Part shown: positions 38,222 to 58,972 of the stretch, piece by piece
Layout: each line of letters opens with the position of its first letter
Position numbering within the stretch: position 1 is the stretch's first letter
Origin: Armatimonadota bacterium
GTDB taxonomy: Bacteria > Armatimonadota > Fimbriimonadia > Fimbriimonadales > Fimbriimonadaceae
NCBI GenBank assembly: GCA_020438215.1
Contig: JAGQUX010000003.1
Coordinates: forward strand, 1 to 64,000
DNA: 64,000 nucleotides
Direction: 5' to 3'
Notes under the pieces: model-generated
What the model saw: the letters and a program-made list of their open reading frames with translations, nothing else
The model's database searches: none
Told to the model about the DNA's origin: nothing
Program-made: the position numbers and the translations under genes

Positions 38222-39880
38222 TCAGTCTTCGATTTTTGCTTTTACTGCTGTGAATGTGCCGTTGTTATAGACACCCTCGACTTCAGCATAGGGGTTGTTC
38301 GCGAGTTGGCTGAAGAACTGCTCAATCGTCAGTGTTTCGTTGTTGGAACCGCGAAGGAATGCTCCCTGCTGGATGACAACGTTAATGCTCTGGCCGCTTG
38401 AACCATTGAATCCAGACCAGGAGACGATACTCATGGTGAATGAGCGGTTGCCGAGATTCAGGTTCGATGTGTTACCGCGAGCTTCGTCATCATCGCCGCC
38501 ACCACCACCGTTGCTGTTTCGGATTTCCATCCGTTTTGCATTCAGGAACGTTCCATCGAAAGCACCTTCAACCTTGACAGGGGTTCCTGCCGAGACCGCC
38601 GCAAAGAACTCAGATTTCGTCATATCGTCGCCGTTTGCAGCGCGATAGGTTGTCGAACCGTTAGCTTTCGCTGTGATCGGTGAACCGAAGGTGTAGGCAA
38701 AGCCCGACCATTCATTGACGGTGTAAGTCAGAGTGCCTTCTGGCTCGTTATCCTCGATTGCTGGCCCTTTGGCTTCATCTTCGTTAATGTCGTCGTCTTC
38801 GAGCTTGACCTTACGAGCAGTCAGCTCATTGGTAGTTGAATTGTAGGTGCCTTCGGCCTCGACTTTCGGGTTACCAGAACCAAGCAGAGCTCGGAACTCA
38901 GCTTCACTGATCGGCAGACCACCATAGCTAAAGAACGTTGTGTTCGCAGTGAAGATCACCTTGACTGTTGCTTCCGAAGGGATGAACCCACGTACGAAGC
39001 TGGCATCAACGGTGATTCCGTTAGCGGGGACGCTAGTGGATGTCACCAGCCCCTTGACCTTGTCTTCGCCTTGGATGCCGTCTTCGATTTTCACGCTTTT
39101 GGCATCAAGTCGTCCGGTTGAAGGAGTGAATGAGCCGCGTACTTCAACAACAATATTGTTTGATAGTACAGGTGAGCCGTTTCCGTCTTCTCGGAAGATG
39201 ACGGTGGTTGCATCGGTGGTGACCAGGATGTTACGGCCTGTGCCAAGACGCAATTCAAATGTCTGCGCCGGAGCAGTACCAGAAAGGTTGCCGATCGTGC
39301 CTTTGAAATCTTCACCAACGTGACGATTCGGATCATTCAGCCCAGACGTGCTTCCTTGAGCGACAACAGGGGTGACCTTGCCGTTATTCAGCACCCATTG
39401 ACTCAGATCAAAGTCGAGAACCAAGTTTCCGCCATTGACAACATCGAATGGGGTTGCGAAGTTGACCACGACAGTTGCATTGTCGCCTGAGACAAGCGAG
39501 TCATCAAACTGCACTTGATTCCCAGTCGTTGAACCAGTAGTGAAAAGCGTCAATCGCTTATCCATGGTTACCCGTGCGGACGTGTAGCTCCCTGCTGGGA
39601 TTGATGCCACATTGAGATACTGGAACAGGCTGTTGCCATTATTGAGGCTACGCAAATCAACGCTTTGACCCGTGCTTTGGTACACGGTTGTGTTGCCACC
39701 TGCACTCACCAGATCAATTTGCTTGATGCTGACCCACACATGGTCATAACCTGCATTCAGGTCATCAGTAATAAAAACATTGAGCGGCTGACCAGAGGTC
39801 GCTGAACCGCCTCCTCCCCCACAACCCACCATAAATATGGCGAAGAGTGCGAGAAACCAAGTGAATACCTTGAACTTCAT
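38222..39880 (-). CDS. Lipoprotein with DUF4382 and DUF5666 domains
   Basis: A 552-residue lipoprotein. The signal peptide ends in 'AIFMVGCGGGGG', with the lipid-modified Cys. Residues ~30-160 fit DUF4382 ('LNVFITDDLNAGYDHVWVSI', 'SIPAGSYTSARVTMDK'). Several DUF5666 repeats follow, each with a 'VEVRGSF' or 'VKVEGAFDG' strand and a later '(D/N)AKxxKIED'-type ending ('LDAKSVKIED', 'ARKVKLED', 'AVKAKIED'). I start at the ATG 39878-39880, behind a GGAG site at the right distance; the longer frame adds only polar residues. Function unknown. Confidence 0.82.
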   Translation of the reverse strand: MKFKVFTWFLALFAIFMVGCGGGGGSATSGQPLNVFITDDLNAGYDHVWVSIKQIDLVSAGGNTTVYQSTGQSVDLRSLNNGNSLFQYLNVASIPAGSYTSARVTMDKRLTLFTTGSTTGNQVQFDDSLVSGDNATVVVNFATPFDVVNGGNLVLDFDLSQWVLNNGKVTPVVAQGSTSGLNDPNRHVGEDFKGTIGNLSGTAPAQTFELRLGTGRNILVTTDATTVIFREDGNGSPVLSNNIVVEVRGSFTPSTGRLDAKSVKIEDGIQGEDKVKGLVTSTSVPANGITVDASFVRGFIPSEATVKVIFTANTTFFSYGGLPISEAEFRALLGSGNPKVEAEGTYNSTTNELTARKVKLEDDDINEDEAKGPAIEDNEPEGTLTYTVNEWSGFAYTFGSPITAKANGSTTYRAANGDDMTKSEFFAAVSAGTPVKVEGAFDGTFLNAKRMEIRNSNGGGGGDDDEARGNTSNLNLGNRSFTMSIVSWSGFNGSSGQSINVVIQQGAFLRGSNNETLTIEQFFSQLANNPYAEVEGVYNNGTFTAVKAKIED

Positions 39881-40087
39881 AGTTGTTCTCCGTTTCTTAT
39901 CGGAACCTTGCTCCGTATCCCTCATGAGGGCCGCATACGGCGGTTTCGGACACGTCTGGGACGTTTTGTCAGATTTTGATTCCGATGCCCTACTGACCGT
40001 GGGGACGTCTGGCCCGGTTTGGACGGTTCATTTGGTGATTGCTCAGATGTGCTCTATAAGTACCGGCAAGGAGGAATTTGAAAACAA

Positions 40088-50885: not shown

Positions 50886-50960
50886 TGGAGCCACTGACCG
50901 GATTTGAACCGGTGACCTGCTGTTTACGAAACAGCTGCTCTACCGCTGAGCTACAGTGGC
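50886..50960 (-). tRNA. tRNA-Thr (anticodon CGT)
   Basis: On the minus strand, the acceptor stem GCCACTG/CAGTGGC closes (50954-50960 with 50890-50896). The D-arm 'TAGCTCAGCGGTAGAGCA' and T-arm 'CCGGTTCAAATCCGG' are canonical. The anticodon stem GCTGT/ACAGC holds the loop TTCGTAA, so the anticodon is CGT, reading ACG (Thr). CCA is encoded (50886-50888). It stands alone between a membrane-protein gene and the subtilase operon. Confidence 0.95.
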
Positions 50961-51031: not shown

Positions 51032-52228
51032 TTACGGCAAATTTAGTCGCGCCCAGTTGATGCGAACTCCAAGCTCACCTGCATACTGCGGATTCAGAGG
51101 ATCGATATCATCGCCATTGCCATCCAGCCAGTCGCGGAGCATTTCTGGCGTCATGGGCGATCGCTTGCGCAGAGCATCTGCAATCACACCGCAGGCAATT
51201 GGACATGCGAAGCTGGTGCCGGACCACTCTGACATGCCACCACTGTGATTCGTACTGATGATGCCGGTTCCTGGTGCGGCGAAATCAGTGCGAGCATGGT
51301 AATTACTAAAATCTGCTTTCACGTCGTGCGGATCTACAGCCGTGACAGCAACAACTTTATTGTTGCGAGCAGGATCCATCAGCTCATTAACCGCCTGATT
51401 CCCTGCCGCAGCCACTATAACCATTCCGTTTTGATCAGCCCAGTCTAGGATCTCACTCATGGCAAAGATTCGCCCAGGAGCGCCCAAGCTGATATTAACG
51501 AGTTCGCAGCCGTAGCGTCGAGCTACGGTCAGCCCCTTCAAGATGTTCCAACTGGACGAAACGCCCTCGCTGTTAGCGACTTTGCAATTGACTATTCGGG
51601 CATGCGGGGCCAGCCCAACAATCAGGCCGGTAACGAATGTGCCGTGCCCTACTGCTTCATCAAAAATGCCGTTTGCGTTATCATCGCGATTTTCTATGAC
51701 GTCGTAGCCAAATCGCTCCCAGCGATCAAGCGCATTGTAAGTTCCGCGTACGTTTCTCCAAAGCCGTGGCTGAAGCGGAGAAAGCCCAGTATCCAGAACG
51801 GCAACATTGATCCTTCGCTGGCCGAACAGGAATGGAGTTTGTTGATAGCTAATTTGATCAAACAAGCCTTTATTGACTTCACCGAGAGCGGCTGTATCGT
51901 ATGCGGCGGCGATTTTCCCACCGGTACGTCCCTGATCAATGGGAAGGTTATCGCCACCTTCCGGAGAATCTAAGTCCTCATTGTCTTCCACCCAAACGAC
52001 GAGCCCGGAGAGACGTAACTCTTCTTCGATGACCTCAATGTTTTGATCGGCGCGGACGCCGAACAAGGCAAAGTTGTAGTAAGGCGATTGATCCTTGATC
52101 GAGATATCAAATTGATGCGCAAGCTCTTTCGCCGAGACTCCGACGTTGAGTTGAGCGACGATTTCCCCCTGCGCCCACGAGAATGCGGCGCAGAATACTG
52201 CCAAAAGCGAGAGACTTATCCGTTTCAT
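51032..52228 (-). CDS. Secreted subtilisin-family serine protease (S8)
   Basis: A 398-residue S8 protease. A signal peptide ('RISLSLLAVFCAAFSWAQ') and an inhibitor-like propeptide precede the catalytic domain. The triad is Asp146 ('NVAVLDTGLSP'), His195 ('VGHGTFVTGL') and Ser339 ('WSGTSFACPIA'), with Asn277 ('VAAAGNQAV') as the oxyanion residue; all are intact. It is the last gene of the operon and starts inside the stop of the CHAT gene (ATGA). Placing a secreted protease with a cytosolic CHAT protease and a sigma factor is unusual; the subtilase may process an extracytoplasmic partner. Confidence 0.93.
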   Translation of the reverse strand: MKRISLSLLAVFCAAFSWAQGEIVAQLNVGVSAKELAHQFDISIKDQSPYYNFALFGVRADQNIEVIEEELRLSGLVVWVEDNEDLDSPEGGDNLPIDQGRTGGKIAAAYDTAALGEVNKGLFDQISYQQTPFLFGQRRINVAVLDTGLSPLQPRLWRNVRGTYNALDRWERFGYDVIENRDDNANGIFDEAVGHGTFVTGLIVGLAPHARIVNCKVANSEGVSSSWNILKGLTVARRYGCELVNISLGAPGRIFAMSEILDWADQNGMVIVAAAGNQAVNELMDPARNNKVVAVTAVDPHDVKADFSNYHARTDFAAPGTGIISTNHSGGMSEWSGTSFACPIACGVIADALRKRSPMTPEMLRDWLDGNGDDIDPLNPQYAGELGVRINWARLNLP

Positions 52229-54846
52229 TTCAGCGATGTTCCTTGTTTACTATAACCGTTGAAGCAGACAACTGAGGCCCAAAAATAGGGATGCTCGTAT
52301 TTCTGCTGGAGTGCTTCTCTTGCGACATTCAAGCAACTCATTACATCTCGCCCAGCCGAAAGCGATCCATAAAACGCTTCCGACCAATCCACCGAAGACC
52401 GATCATCAATAGCCCATTGCCCCGCCAGAACCCGTTCAGCACCACAGGCTAAGAATCCTCTGCTTAGCCCATCCGGTTCGTAACGGTTGATACTGCTCAT
52501 GGCTCCCGAGAAACAGGCGGCCATCGTGACATGTCCTATTCGAGCTTTAGATCTCACCAGTTCTGCCGCCTGGATTTGTCCATCACTCAAATTTATAGAC
52601 GAAAGCATGGGGTTCGATGGTTGGAAAATTCCATGAGCGGCAATGTGCAGGATATCAATGCATCCTCCTTCCAGCGAATCTCTTGCCTCTGAGATTGTTG
52701 TGCACACCTCCGCCATAGGATAAAAAGAGATCAACGTCGCGACCTCTTGGTGAACATGAGGCAAGTCCTCTGCCTCGTGATACCAAATCACCACTCTTTT
52801 TTGCGAAATCGGCTTGCTTTTCAGTTCACTACGCCCTGGTGTCAATGAAATTTGCACCGAATCGTCTCGTGCCATCGCCTGCCAAGGCACCGACCAGAAC
52901 ACTCCTTCCGGAGAAAGTCGTTTGCAAATCGTAGGATCAAACTGGAGCTTGATTTGCAGTTCATTCAAAAGCTCTTGGCACTGCTTTCCATCACTTTGGA
53001 AGCCAAGAGACGGCTCAACAAGTTCAAAGTGCAACCACCGCAGCTTTTGATCCAGTTCGCTCGCAGAAATTTCAAGCTTGGTCGCTTGGTTGTCGCGTAT
53101 GAGATAGAGATCATCTTTGACTTCAAGATAAATCCATTCTCCTGGATCATTTTTAGCATCGTACTGGTGCCAGAGCCGGTCACCAACCTCGAACGTGAGC
53201 TCGCGCCACATCCGCTGGACAGAGGCTGAAGCGGCTTCCAGGCGTTGAGAGCGCTGACCTTCTTGATTTGATGTGCGTCGTTGAATCTCAGAGCGAAGTT
53301 CTGTCAGCCTTACGCGTAGATCACCATCCAGCGGTGAAGGCTGATTGAGAATCTCATCAACAAGAGCGATTGATCGTGAACGGATAATGATCTCCCGAAC
53401 CTGGGCGATTCTTTCCGGAGTCTGGGAGGCAAGTAGCGACTCGAGCCAAGTTTGGATGGCTTCGGCTTTATTGCGCAGGTATCCAGCAACAGAAAGGTTG
53501 GACTGAACCGCCATTCTTCCCCGCCAAATCTCCTCAGCCATTTGGGAAAAGTAGCGATCTCTTTGCTTCCCTTCGCTTTGGAGCGCCTGGACGTAATACA
53601 TCTCCCAAACGAGGTCAAAGAGTGCCGGATTTTTGGCAAGCTGTTTCAGATTTTTGATGGCACTGCGAACACCGTTCTTTGCCTGGACAATTAAGTTCGC
53701 AAAAAGCATCCTCGACTGCCCATGAAGCCTCAGAGTTTCGCCCGCCTGGATCAACTCATCCAATTGCTTTCGACTGAGTTTGCGTACTGAAAATGTGTAT
53801 CGCGTGGTGATGACATCGGCAATCCAGACATCATCACCGTACTTGCGATAGTCTTGTTCTGCCCGTTTGAGTGCCACCTTGGCTGACTCATTCTTCCCTT
53901 GCCAGAATCGACAGATGGCAATCCCCTGCCAACACCCGGCGCGGTGGACAAGCATGTTTTTCGCCCATTGCTTTCTGAGTGCGGACTGGTAGGCATCTTC
54001 CGCTTCCGACCACATGTTCATCGCCAGATAAACACCGCCCAAATCATGTTCAACGCGGAAAGCTTCTTCCTCATCGGAACTGAAAGAGTTGCGCACTTCT
54101 AAGAGAGTTTTGAGAGCTAAATCGTAATGTCCATCAAGCCGCTCCGCGGCGGCGATATTGGATTGCGCGGTAGCTGCGTAGTCAGTGAGCCCAAGTGAGA
54201 GGAAACCGACATATGCTTCTTCCGCAACAGGGCGGACAAAATCAGCGGGTTTCCTGCCAAGTAGCGCAGTTGACAACCCAGTCAGAGCCATTGCCCGTTC
54301 TATGGGAGCTTCCTCCTGAGAAAGGTGACTAGTTGCCCGCTCGTACCACCCCTCAGCCTCGGCAAGCTCATCAAACCATGCGTGGGCGTTACCTGTGTTG
54401 AGGGCGATCTTTCCAGCGGTTACTTTGTCGCCTTCGCGAACGGCGATAGCAAAGAGTTCTGATCCCAAGGCGATTGCCGAACGCTTTCTGCCCGCTCGGG
54501 CAAATGAGTCGATTCCACCAAGCGCGAACTTTGCACCCTCTGCTTCTGACTGAGCTACTTTCCGGGCTTCTTGAAAAGCGTTTGCGCTCGCCAACCACTT
54601 ACCCTGTAGTTTGAGATGAAGAGCTTTGAAGCGATATCCAGCTGGCTCACAACCATCGACCTGGATAAATGCGGCACCGATTTCTGCGAGCCGGAGTGCC
54701 TCGTCGTAATCTCGGCCGGATTCAATGCGCCATTGATTGAAAAGTGCTTCTGCCAGTTCAGGAACGCCGTGTTTCCGAACAACACTTCTAGCATTAGCGA
54801 TCGAATCCGCTTTCTCAAGTAGCTTCAGGAAATCGTCACTCGTCAT
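52225..54846 (-). CDS. TPR-CHAT cysteine protease
   Basis: An 873-residue protein. Residues ~40-470 are tetratricopeptide-like repeats ('YDEALRLAEIGAAFIQVDG', 'EAEDAYQSALRKQW' and similar). Residues ~660-870 are a CHAT domain, the caspase-like protease fold related to separase. The dyad is His738 in 'ILHIAAHGIFQPSNP' and Cys778 in 'VTMAACFSGAM', spaced as usual for CHAT. No signal peptide, so cytosolic. I start at the ATG 54844-54846, overlapping the previous gene by 11 bases; the longer frame is unlikely. TPR-CHAT proteins cleave specific partner proteins, as in type III-E CRISPR and gasdermin systems. The target here is unknown; the 177-aa product is a candidate. Confidence 0.88.
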   Translation of the reverse strand: MTSDDFLKLLEKADSIANARSVVRKHGVPELAEALFNQWRIESGRDYDEALRLAEIGAAFIQVDGCEPAGYRFKALHLKLQGKWLASANAFQEARKVAQSEAEGAKFALGGIDSFARAGRKRSAIALGSELFAIAVREGDKVTAGKIALNTGNAHAWFDELAEAEGWYERATSHLSQEEAPIERAMALTGLSTALLGRKPADFVRPVAEEAYVGFLSLGLTDYAATAQSNIAAAERLDGHYDLALKTLLEVRNSFSSDEEEAFRVEHDLGGVYLAMNMWSEAEDAYQSALRKQWAKNMLVHRAGCWQGIAICRFWQGKNESAKVALKRAEQDYRKYGDDVWIADVITTRYTFSVRKLSRKQLDELIQAGETLRLHGQSRMLFANLIVQAKNGVRSAIKNLKQLAKNPALFDLVWEMYYVQALQSEGKQRDRYFSQMAEEIWRGRMAVQSNLSVAGYLRNKAEAIQTWLESLLASQTPERIAQVREIIIRSRSIALVDEILNQPSPLDGDLRVRLTELRSEIQRRTSNQEGQRSQRLEAASASVQRMWRELTFEVGDRLWHQYDAKNDPGEWIYLEVKDDLYLIRDNQATKLEISASELDQKLRWLHFELVEPSLGFQSDGKQCQELLNELQIKLQFDPTICKRLSPEGVFWSVPWQAMARDDSVQISLTPGRSELKSKPISQKRVVIWYHEAEDLPHVHQEVATLISFYPMAEVCTTISEARDSLEGGCIDILHIAAHGIFQPSNPMLSSINLSDGQIQAAELVRSKARIGHVTMAACFSGAMSSINRYEPDGLSRGFLACGAERVLAGQWAIDDRSSVDWSEAFYGSLSAGRDVMSCLNVAREALQQKYEHPYFWASVVCFNGYSKQGTSLK

Positions 54847-55369
54847 GATCCAGAATTTCCTGGGCGTTCGGCACAACTAACGTTTCCTCTAGCCCAATGA
54901 TCTGAATGCGGGAGTGATCCAAAGTGGAAACTTCAAAACGGAATGTGCCGCTTGGATCACACTCCACCGTCTCGTTTCCGAGAACGGAAAGTGCGCCCGA
55001 TTGGTTGACCTTTCCGAGGACTTCCCAGCCATCTGGTATCGCGGAATACATGATTCGCAGACTCACTTCTCCATCTTGAAAGGCGAATTGGTGCTGATTC
55101 CCACCCGAACGAGCCGCATGCATTGGCTTGAGCATCATGCTGAAATCCAGAAGACGCATAGGCTTCCGTTCAGGCATGATGGCCATTGCTTTTCGCATCG
55201 TTGCTTCTGGCACTTGCGGCATGACGGCCCTCAGCTCAGCTACGGTCATCTTGAGCTGTTCAAGACGACTAGATTCCCGATCAGTGAGTTCCCCAGCCGC
55301 ACTGAGCGGCTGATCCCCCATGGCAATATCCACCAATAAGGTGAGTCGATCATTTGGACGATTGAACAT
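54836..55369 (-). CDS. Small protein between sigma factor and CHAT protease
   Basis: A 177-residue soluble protein I do not recognise. The first ~90 residues are helical and Met/Leu-rich ('RESSRLEQLKMTVAELRAVM', 'EATMRKAMAIMPERKPMRLL'). The last ~70 residues are a small beta-sandwich ('VSLRIMYSAIPDGWEVLGKV', 'GTFRFEVSTLDHSRIQIIGL'). It starts inside the sigma gene (20-base overlap) behind an AGGGAG site and ends inside the CHAT gene. The placement suits an anti-sigma or protease-substrate role, but no known anti-sigma motif is visible, so this is inference. Confidence 0.7.
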   Translation of the reverse strand: MFNRPNDRLTLLVDIAMGDQPLSAAGELTDRESSRLEQLKMTVAELRAVMPQVPEATMRKAMAIMPERKPMRLLDFSMMLKPMHAARSGGNQHQFAFQDGEVSLRIMYSAIPDGWEVLGKVNQSGALSVLGNETVECDPSGTFRFEVSTLDHSRIQIIGLEETLVVPNAQEILDHDE

Positions 55370-55991
55370 TGTATAACTCCCTTAAGGCGCGTCGCGAAAG
55401 CCCTGATACATCTTCGCCTTCAAAGAATCCCTTCTTAATCAGAACTGACCTCAACTTCTCAATACAGCGACTTCGCGTTGGCCCTATTGAGCCAGGTGCA
55501 ATCCCCAGCGATTCTGAAATCTCATCATAAGAAAGAGGTTTCTCATCGAAGAGGGCAAGAAGGAGATCTTTGCAAATGGGTTTCAGCTGACTAAGCGATT
55601 CGATGGCGGTTTCGTGCTGCGCCCCGATAGCAACTAAGTCATCAGCGGCATCCACATCTGCTTGAATCACCTCTTCTAATAGTTCATTGTTTTCCCCGAT
55701 ATTTCGTGTTTTAGAGGAGAGACGAGATATTCTGATGGACTCTCGGCTGGCAGTGACGGTCAGCCACTTCCCAATGCGGTGACCATCATCTATCTTTTCA
55801 AGATTCTTATAAAGTGCCAGGAAAGTGTGCTGAAAGACCTCCTCGGCATCTTCAGCTTGAAGGCGCGCGGATCGGGCAACACTGTAAACCAGGTTGCCAT
55901 ACATCTCGACTAATCCTCTCCAGGCACTATCATCACCGCGCCTTGCCCTGAGCAAAAAAGAGTGGGCGAGATGCGGATCTATTCCACGCAT
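55350..55991 (-). CDS. ECF-type sigma-70 family factor
   Basis: A 213-residue sigma factor. Sigma-2 is at residues ~10-85 ('RRGDDSAWRGLVEMYGNLVY', 'EDAEEVFQHTFLALYKNL'), and sigma-4 at ~125-185 ('LSYDEISESLGIAPGSIGPT', 'RSRCIEKLRSVL'). Sigma-3 is absent, as in ECF factors. About 25 extra residues follow ('GEDVSGLSRRALRELYN'). I start at the ATG 55989-55991, which has TACAAT (55999-56004) seven bases upstream; the frame is open further, but the added residues are unlike a sigma-2 domain. First gene of the four-gene operon, so it may control its own operon. Confidence 0.92.
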   Translation of the reverse strand: MRGIDPHLAHSFLLRARRGDDSAWRGLVEMYGNLVYSVARSARLQAEDAEEVFQHTFLALYKNLEKIDDGHRIGKWLTVTASRESIRISRLSSKTRNIGENNELLEEVIQADVDAADDLVAIGAQHETAIESLSQLKPICKDLLLALFDEKPLSYDEISESLGIAPGSIGPTRSRCIEKLRSVLIKKGFFEGEDVSGLSRRALRELYNVQSSK

Positions 55992-55998
55992 GAAAAAA

Positions 55999-56004
55999 AT
56001 TGTA
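55999..56004 (-). promoter_or_regulatory. -10 box of the sigma/CHAT operon
   Basis: TACAAT on the minus strand, seven bases (TTTTTTC) before the sigma-factor ATG. No -35 hexamer of sigma-70 type is clear, so an ECF-type promoter is possible. Confidence 0.45.
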
Positions 56005-56072
56005 TCACGCTTTGCATTTGTTTGCTTATAGGTTGTGACGGCGGACAACCGCCAGACTTTGAGGAACAAAAA

Positions 56073-56450
56073 ATGAAAAACACAATGAAAGCAACTGCAG
56101 TCGTCGGACTTGCGTCCCTAGCCCTCTTCGCATTCGCGATGCTCGGTCGATACGAAGCTCGAATGAGTGGCGAAGGCGGAAAAGGCAAAGCGAAGATGCA
56201 GTCCAAGCAAAAGCGCGGCGAATACCAAGCAGAGTTTGAAGTTGAGGGCGAAAATATGCTCTCCGATGCTAGCTACTGGATCAATGTCGATGGCCAGTCA
56301 TTCTTGGTCAACACCAACGCATTCGGCTCATTCGAATTCTCTGCTCGCTACTCCAGCCCCGACCATCCGAACATCGAAGGCGGCACCCCTATCAACATCA
56401 CCAATGGCGCCGGCGATGTGGTGATGCAAGGCGTCTTTCAACAACGATAA
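56073..56450 (+). CDS. Small exported protein divergent from the sigma operon
   Basis: A 125-residue protein with an N-terminal helix ('AVVGLASLALFAFAMLG'), a basic stretch ('GKGKAKMQSKQKRGEYQ') and a beta-rich body ('SYWINVDGQSFLVNTNAFGS'). I do not recognise it. A GAGG site lies nine bases before the ATG. It is divergent from the sigma-factor gene with about 80 bases between starts, so the two may be co-regulated; it could be a target of the sigma factor or subtilase. A good terminator follows. Confidence 0.6.
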   Translation: MKNTMKATAVVGLASLALFAFAMLGRYEARMSGEGGKGKAKMQSKQKRGEYQAEFEVEGENMLSDASYWINVDGQSFLVNTNAFGSFEFSARYSSPDHPNIEGGTPINITNGAGDVVMQGVFQQR

Positions 56451-56500
56451 AACACATCACGACTGATGCAAGTACCGCTTGCGCAGCATACACGCCAATT

Positions 56501-56529
56501 GGCCGGGTTCATCACCCGGCCATTTTTTT
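56501..56529 (+). terminator. Intrinsic terminator
   Basis: Perfect 8-bp stem (GGCCGGGT with ACCCGGCC, 56501-56521) around a 5-base loop, then a T7 run. Confidence 0.9.
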
Positions 56530-57776: not shown

Positions 57777-58352
57777 ATGCGAATCAGGAGGATATTGTTG
57801 GCCGCCGTTGTTGCGTCTGCTATTGCAGCTGGTTCCGCTTGGTTTATTACATTTCATGCTCAGCAAGAGAACTCCCCTCAGATTATTGGAGGGATTCCTC
57901 AGGCGATACTCTCCCAATCCCCTTCCCTTCAGCTCGCATACGATCGCTACACCGAGCGTGGCTCCAAGTACATCTGGGGAACAAATGATTGCTCAGTTTT
58001 CTTGATCGACTACATGAAAGGGCAAGGCGCTCCCATCAAGAAACGCTGGACAACCCGCGAACTCTTTGAGCCCGCCAAGATGGATGTCTTTGGCTACAAC
58101 TTCTTTGGATATCCCCCCGAGCAATCCAAAGCCGGTGATCTAGTCGTTTTTCGCTACATCGGCACAGAGGGTACCGAGGTCGGTCATTGCGGAATCGTGA
58201 TTGAAGAAGGTGAGCAGAAGTACGTTGTTCACAACTCATCCCCCTATGGAGGGGTGGTCACCCAATCAGCGGATGGGTTCTTCCGTCAAGCGAAGTCGCT
58301 CAATGCCAATCTCCGGATTTTCCGCCCCAAAGCGCACGCCCACACAATATGA
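57777..58352 (+). CDS. NlpC/P60-like anchored protein, copy 1
   Basis: A 191-residue protein with an N-terminal membrane anchor ('ILLAAVVASAIAAGSAWFI') and an NlpC/P60-like cysteine-peptidase fold. 'SKYIWGTNDCSVFLIDYMK' holds the probable nucleophile Cys, and 'EVGHCGIVIEEG' the His. It likely cuts peptidoglycan peptides or related amides outside the membrane. TTATCT (57764-57769) is seven bases before the ATG, inside the hppD terminator. It overlaps its paralogue downstream by ATGA. The family assignment rests on the two motifs and general length. Confidence 0.75.
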   Translation: MRIRRILLAAVVASAIAAGSAWFITFHAQQENSPQIIGGIPQAILSQSPSLQLAYDRYTERGSKYIWGTNDCSVFLIDYMKGQGAPIKKRWTTRELFEPAKMDVFGYNFFGYPPEQSKAGDLVVFRYIGTEGTEVGHCGIVIEEGEQKYVVHNSSPYGGVVTQSADGFFRQAKSLNANLRIFRPKAHAHTI

Positions 58353-58972
58353 ACAAGTACAAAGCCTTCCGCTTCATCTTCGTCGGCACAATTTTGTTGC
58401 TCGTGGGAGTTATTGGCTACGTCCTTTCGCGAGCAGATTTTGACGATGGCTTGGGCGAATCTCAGGTTTGGCCAATTGAGCAGGATGAGATTCCAGGGGA
58501 GCCGATTGAAGAACCACAACTGATTGTCGGATTTCCTGACGATCTGAAAGCTAAAGACCCCGCAGCTAAGAAGTCATATGATCAGTACATGGATAAGGGC
58601 GGCAAGTACATCTGGGGAGCTAACGATTGCTCAATCTTTGTGCAGGATTACATGAAAGCCAGCGGTGCAAATGTCGAAAAACGCTGGACAACCAAAGAGC
58701 TTTTCCAGCCCAAAAGGATGGAGAAATACGGATATTCCTATTGGGAGCACGAGGCGGGTAACCAGTTCCCCGACGGCACGGTTCTCATTTATCGCTGGGA
58801 ATCAGGTGATCAAGGCTGGGGGCACTGCGGAATCGTCACCAACCACTTCGGCGATACCCGAGTAATGCACAACGACCCGATCAACAAAGGACTGGTTGTC
58901 GAACCGTTCAACGATTTCCTGCGAATGGCGGAGCTTCGTGAAGGCAAACTCCGCGTTTTTGTTCCCAACTAG
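58349..58972 (+). CDS. NlpC/P60-like anchored protein, copy 2
   Basis: A 207-residue tandem paralogue of the preceding gene, with the same layout: an anchor ('FIFVGTILLLVGVIGYVL'), then 'GKYIWGANDCSIFVQDYMK' (Cys) and 'GWGHCGIVTNHFGDTRV' (His). Identity to copy 1 is strongest around 'KRWTTKELFQPKRM' versus 'KRWTTRELFEPAKM'. It overlaps copy 1 (ATGA) and its end overlaps the convergent oxidoreductase gene by four bases. Function as for copy 1; the duplicates may act on different substrates. Confidence 0.75.
   Translation: MNKYKAFRFIFVGTILLLVGVIGYVLSRADFDDGLGESQVWPIEQDEIPGEPIEEPQLIVGFPDDLKAKDPAAKKSYDQYMDKGGKYIWGANDCSIFVQDYMKASGANVEKRWTTKELFQPKRMEKYGYSYWEHEAGNQFPDGTVLIYRWESGDQGWGHCGIVTNHFGDTRVMHNDPINKGLVVEPFNDFLRMAELREGKLRVFVPN

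Follow-up and report, generated by a model that had tools for sequence, protein, structure and literature searches.

What does a cytosolic TPR-CHAT protease do in an operon that also encodes an ECF-type sigma factor, a small soluble protein and a secreted subtilase? The locus lies within a 64,000-nucleotide window (the whole stretch of DNA analysed, positions 1 to 64,000 of contig JAGQUX010000003.1 of an Armatimonadota bacterium of the Fimbriimonadaceae). Four genes on the minus strand overlap by 20, 11 and 4 bases, just as the original prediction had described, and encode in order the sigma factor (55350-55991, 213 aa, ATG at 55991), p177 (54836-55369, 177 aa, a predicted soluble anti-sigma factor), the TPR-CHAT protease (52225-54846, 873 aa) and the S8 subtilase (51032-52228, 398 aa). 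The small exported protein predicted to be divergent from them is indeed encoded on the plus strand (56073-56450, 125 aa), and its gene is followed by a terminator-like hairpin and T run (56500-56522, plus strand) assigned by consensus match only. A tRNA-Thr (CGT) gene (50886-50960, minus strand) is located directly 3' of the operon, and a tandem pair of paralogous genes on the plus strand (57777-58972) encodes exported proteins that contain NDCS and GHCGIV motifs and are possibly NlpC/P60-like.

The sigma factor matches Sigma70_r2 in Pfam (1.3e-10) and sigma70-ECF in NCBIfam (1e-18), and its region-4 motif, GxIGPTRxRCxExLR, is near-invariant from phylum to phylum. The TPR-CHAT protease contains Pfam CHAT (PF12770, 7.3e-28) and TPR (4.9e-08) domains and is the product of the sole CHAT gene in the genome, whereas the subtilase matches Peptidase_S8 (4.8e-32). 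Both active sites are intact, as originally claimed: CHAT residues His738 (codon 52633-52635) and Cys778 (codon 52513-52515) are invariant among relatives (17/17 and 32/32), as are the catalytic Asp146, His195 and Ser339 of the subtilase (17/17).

The gene order is far from a chance arrangement. There are 17 p177 homologues, including the window copy, in 16 of 251 Armatimonadota genomes; all 17 lie inside a sigma-p177-CHAT-S8 module, and the check for this four-gene order in other genomes finds order and orientation identical at all 16 other p177 loci of the phylum. Searching with CHAT yields further Armatimonadota loci in which p177 is present, or in which a similar reading frame, missed by the first profile, fills the gap. 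A second order, sigma-CHAT-p177-S8, has the same content (loci L084-L089, L091, L116 and L135). Beyond the phylum, we scanned 84,980 species genomes and then searched with profiles, which placed the module in Chloroflexota, Planctomycetota and Acidobacteriota, and in a rearranged form in Actinomycetota, where Catellatospora has S8-sigma-p177 opposite CHAT and Nocardioides has sigma-p177-CHAT. That the order varies while the content is kept argues for functional linkage of the module genes.

Among the variants of this organization, we note that the divergent sigma-CHAT-p177-S8 version occurs in the same genus and family (L084-L089 and L091), with L084 and L085 representing two genomes of the same genus (G148 and G165), and that G078 carries both versions (L032 and L086). 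At L078, L079 and L082 the spacing between sigma and p177 is enlarged by 1.6-2.9 kb. Profile searches did not detect a sigma factor near CHAT in the Meiothermus loci and some of the Chloroflexota loci. Related TPR-CHAT genes in Meiothermus and Thermaceae (L106, L107, L117 and L130) have no detectable family sigma nearby, and L107 and L117 contain short p177-like frames approximately 2 kb upstream.

The identity of p177 is central to what the module might do. It had been described as an unknown protein, and searched alone it has no match in Pfam, NCBIfam or PADLOC, but profiles of its family reveal a relation to anti-sigma factors. The AF2 model (pLDDT 88.6) has helices at residues 5-64, a weak linker at about 65-91 and a beta-sandwich at 92-166; when used in a fold search of the PDB it returns nothing below E 0.001, just generic beta-sandwiches. 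A p177-family profile matches RsiW in the PDB with E=0.0033, and further family profiles match RsiW (0.001), 3hug_B (0.0016), DdvA (0.0017) and ChrR (0.0037), in all cases through the N-terminal part. We take 3hug_B to be an RslA-type anti-sigma protein. Anti-sigma structures thus account for five of the eight profile matches among 177,635 sequences, with ChrR counted twice and each E-value modest (0.001-0.004). The C-terminal part of the family matches the beta-sandwich of NOMO2 (1e-14, by profile).

Pfam searches of a multi-phylum p177 set give a similar picture, with zf-HC2 in 13 of 38 members (best 9.7e-07) and CarboxypepD_reg in 12 of 38, neither of them in the window protein. The zinc-ligand motif HxxxCxxC is present at the N-terminus of 22/74 p177 homologues when defined strictly, others having one extra residue between H and C, and the ligands are absent from the window p177 and from many relatives. 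By the zinc-ligand criterion the window p177 is not a ZAS protein, its ligands having been lost. In Chloroflexota, the p177 homologues at L108, L110, L113 and L114 have seemingly two consecutive zinc-finger anti-sigma motifs, and the nearby sigma factor is weakly matching or undetected. Taken by its profile matches, the p177 family combines a C-terminal beta-sandwich with an N-terminal anti-sigma domain akin to that of RsiW and ChrR. It resembles the zinc anti-sigma factors RsiW, RslA and ChrR in its N-terminal domain, but the window protein differs from all three in lacking zinc ligands and in having a CarboxypepD_reg-like beta-sandwich as its C-terminal domain. RsiW also spans the membrane and p177 does not; a hydrophobic membrane segment is found neither in p177 nor in CHAT. 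The p177 protein is therefore read as the probable inhibitor that holds the sigma factor.

The closest structural relatives of the protease point in the same direction. In a Foldseek search the CHAT model (AF2; pLDDT 87.8, pTM 0.85) has Csx29 as its best PDB match (E=1e-13), followed by separase (~4e-12), and DdvA is also matched. A profile search of the PDB likewise finds Csx29, separase and DdvA (chain 8rot_B, residues 834-970, at 1.4e-06), whereas a single-sequence phmmer search of the PDB with the CHAT domain gives nothing useful. The kinship to Csx29 is not that of a member, as the NCBIfam Csx29 model scores the window protein at 23.8 bits, far below its cut-off of 300. DdvA unites in a single protein both of the domains that are separate here, which provides independent support for the anti-sigma and CHAT proteins acting in one pathway. 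The locus was said to be without CRISPR genes, and this is supported: Cas1 was not found in the 99.4% complete genome, in which the positive controls worked, and inspection of the window ORFs brought up no cas-like gene. CHAT proteases have roles in gasdermin and CRISPR defence, and together with the fold match of the TPR-CHAT protein to Csx29 this raises the alternative of a defence or programmed-death module, in which CHAT is a suicide protease and sigma and p177 only control its expression. PADLOC has no match for either p177 or CHAT, which counts against this alternative, and we return to it with the genes that carry the promoter-like motif.

If CHAT cuts p177, the family alignment suggests where. 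Arg87 (codon 55109-55111, minus strand) is the sole invariant residue of the family, conserved in 67 of 67 non-redundant, divergent homologues (below 80% identity to each other, with the start Met set aside in ranking columns), and the next-best internal columns, at 91%, are residues of the beta-sandwich. Its context is mostly [AG]-hydrophobic-R-[GSA], and it sits in the low-confidence linker just before the beta-sandwich (AF2 pLDDT ~61 at residues 81-90). Because the only invariant residue falls in a predicted linker, a kept protease site is the simplest reason for its conservation, and Arg87 is most likely the position of the CHAT cut and the prime candidate for its P1 residue. Separase cuts after Arg, and the relationship of CHAT to this Arg-cutting protease is taken to favour Arg87 further. 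Nonetheless the pairing of CHAT with Arg87 is a guess by analogy, since Csx29 needs no specific residue in its substrate Csx30 (PMC10028731), and p177, with its invariant Arg, differs in this from Csx30, which has no essential cleavage residue. Arg87 could alternatively have a structural or sigma-binding role.

The same residue bears on a second alternative, in which p177 is an anti-sigma factor released by a conformational change or by a ligand of its beta-sandwich, in the manner of ChrR, and CHAT and S8 are outputs or effectors. The layout of p177, a soluble anti-sigma domain with a C-terminal regulatory domain, is ChrR-like, and CHAT and S8 both lie downstream of the promoter-like motif at the sigma/p177 junction and could on that account be effectors. 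A ligand-sensing beta-sandwich, however, leaves the invariance of Arg87 in the predicted linker unexplained; moreover, the related protease Csx29 cleaves a sigma inhibitor, and anti-sigma and CHAT domains occur together in DdvA. We regard this alternative as unlikely and prefer cleavage of p177 by CHAT.

In the literature we found no paper that links CHAT proteases to a sigma-factor operon, apart from a remark on ECF54. According to a review (PMC8999054), ECF54 sigma factors may be subject to proteolysis, a proposal that rests on the CHAT, subtilase and carboxypeptidase proteins in their gene context, and the context group of Casas-Pastor et al. 2021, as cited in that review, is read as being without an anti-sigma factor. 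Judged by gene context as the review gives it, the loci described here are alike, in that genes for CHAT, subtilase and carboxypeptidase-domain proteins accompany that of an ECF sigma factor; sigma is found with CHAT in Catellatospora and Nocardioides, and Catellatospora also has S8. This suggests a third alternative, that CHAT or S8 degrades the sigma factor itself and that the system is kept off without an anti-sigma factor. Yet nearly all complete loci encode an anti-sigma-like protein, and S8, which has an export signal, should not meet a cytosolic sigma factor. In contrast to the ECF54 context as cited in the review, the module described here has at its core an anti-sigma-like protein, one that carries a CarboxypepD_reg-like domain; the ECF54 "carboxypeptidase" may be this beta-sandwich of p177, which is a non-protease domain. 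We think that the ECF54 anti-sigma factor escaped notice, since what can be recognised of it is the carboxypeptidase-regulatory-like domain, as far as the review's description of the group allows. Direct degradation of the sigma factor is thus very unlikely, and we return to cleavage of p177 by CHAT.

Comparison of the upstream regions of the family loci reveals a shared motif, TGTATCA-N17-CTCTT (with CTTAW as the second part in this genome). One copy (TGTATCA-N17-CTTAA, 55382-55410, minus strand) is at the sigma/p177 junction and points into p177-CHAT-S8, and this position is the same in nearly every family locus. A second copy (TGTATCA-N17-CTTAT, 56001-56029, plus strand) faces the divergent exported gene from the interval between it and sigma, an arrangement that is repeated in relatives. 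These are the only two exact matches to TGTATCA-N17-CTTAW in the 2.64 Mb genome, and both are at the operon. Among 17 relatives there are 13 exact copies, of which 8 are at the operon and 5 are located 36-161 nt upstream of exported-protein genes; two of these five front DUF4382/DUF5666 lipoprotein-like genes, and off-operon copies also front beta-propeller genes, which are exported and not killing effectors. In a relaxed form (TGTATC-N17/18-CTCT) and across all loci there are 12 junction matches in 20.5 kb compared to 24 elsewhere in 2.76 Mb; the junction windows were picked after the motif had been seen in the family loci, and the other phyla serve as the independent test. Other Armatimonadota, and Planctomycetota too, have the relaxed motif at the sigma/p177 junction, and in Catellatospora it precedes the S8-sigma-p177 operon.

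The motif and the sigma factor, including its near-invariant region 4, are conserved together, from which we infer recognition of the motif by the cognate sigma; both copies are accordingly proposed as promoters, on sequence grounds. Counting against a promoter at the junction is that the p177 start codon follows the motif after only ~12 nt, so that the transcript would be nearly leaderless. The motif was also considered as an extended -10 (TGATACA) before sigma and this was rejected, as the same motif at the sigma/p177 junction has the opposite orientation and off-operon copies face exported genes only as TGTATCA-N17-CTCTT. A search for a wider regulon in this genome with one mismatch allowed gives 13 extra sites compared to 9 control matches, none of them claimable. 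The window also contains a DUF4382/DUF5666 lipoprotein-like gene (38222-39925, minus strand) with no motif upstream, whereas genes of this class in relatives G220 and G243 have the sigma motif upstream. The genes behind the off-operon copies, exported lipoproteins and beta-propeller proteins and not killing effectors, argue against the defence alternative, as does the wide occurrence of the module within one bacterial family, and a suicide role for CHAT seems highly improbable. The preferred reading remains that CHAT controls the sigma factor through p177.

The role originally given to the subtilase, as the extracytoplasmic part of the switch, is not supported. All 30 aligned S8 proteins have an N-terminal hydrophobic export signal, and those of L069-L071 also have a lipobox-like LxGC. 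Neither p177 nor CHAT has a membrane segment, which makes an output the better reading of S8. Ten homologues of the divergent exported protein were found in the phylum, eight of which (the window copy included) are directly divergent from the sigma gene, which makes it a fifth member of the module in some of the family loci. Its gene is single-copy in this genome and is probably a target gene.

A scenario that we consider fairly probable is a cytosolic switch in which CHAT cuts p177 and the freed sigma factor acts on the motif promoters. In the resting state the N-terminal domain of p177 would hold the ECF sigma factor. CHAT would become active upon a signal in the cytosol, for which the TPR array is the probable sensor, and would cut the p177 linker, most likely after Arg87, parting the anti-sigma domain from the beta-sandwich and so destabilising it. 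The freed sigma factor would then use the TGTATCA-N17-CTCTT promoters (CTTAW here) to express p177-CHAT-S8 and the divergent exported protein and, in some relatives, lipoprotein and other exported-protein genes as well. Since the sigma gene is upstream of the junction promoter, inhibitor and protease would be induced and sigma would not, so that the output may be a pulse, followed by a return to the resting state if the CHAT signal does not last. Counting against the scenario are the missing zinc ligands of p177, the modest anti-sigma E-values and the loci in which no sigma factor was detected. The core of the original prediction is retained, with the conserved module, the anti-sigma-like domain, the linker Arg, the Csx29 fold and the motif in its favour, and the part given to the subtilase is not.

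Several known systems use parts of this logic. In type III-E CASP/Craspase, Csx29 cleaves the sigma inhibitor Csx30, with no strict residue requirement (PMC10028731), so that there too the gene for a TPR-CHAT protease accompanies those for an ECF sigma factor and its inhibitor, the role that we propose for p177. The N-terminal domain of Csx30 binds sigma and the cut is in a flexible region toward the C-terminal side, as is proposed for p177. The type III-E inhibitor is over 500 aa, however, compared to the 177 aa of p177 with its RsiW/ChrR-kind domain; type III-E CASP is tied to CRISPR, whereas here there is no Cas1 in the genome and no cas-like ORF was noticed in the window; and only here do an S8 subtilase and an exported protein belong to the module. 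In the DdvS-DdvA system of Myxococcus xanthus, anti-sigma and TPR-CHAT domains are likewise in one pathway, but DdvA has both and is transmembrane, whereas the module described here divides them between two cytosolic proteins and includes a subtilase as well. The CalpL-CalpT-CalpS system of type III CRISPR (PMC11417357) has a similar logic, in that an ECF sigma factor is freed when a cytosolic protease cleaves its soluble anti-sigma factor; CalpL, though, is a Lon-SAVED protease activated by cA4, and the system has neither CHAT nor a subtilase.

By analogy, the module seems to be a counterpart, free of CRISPR, of a switch shown to date mainly in CRISPR immunity. More tentatively, and with somewhat less than even confidence, we suggest that it occurs widely and does not depend on CRISPR: a CHAT protease of the separase/Csx29 kind would cleave the soluble anti-sigma factor after an invariant Arg, and the sigma factor thereby freed, with its own conserved promoter (TGTATC-N17/18-CTCT), would induce inhibitor, protease and secreted proteins. 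On this view type III-E CASP would have arisen from this general bacterial system or alongside it. If so, a probable substrate, cut site and promoter could be assigned to an uncharacterised group of CHAT proteases, and the published reading of the ECF54 context as being without an anti-sigma factor, as cited in PMC8999054, would be corrected. Caspase-like control of transcription would then extend beyond CRISPR, as a switch that is ancient and common among bacteria.
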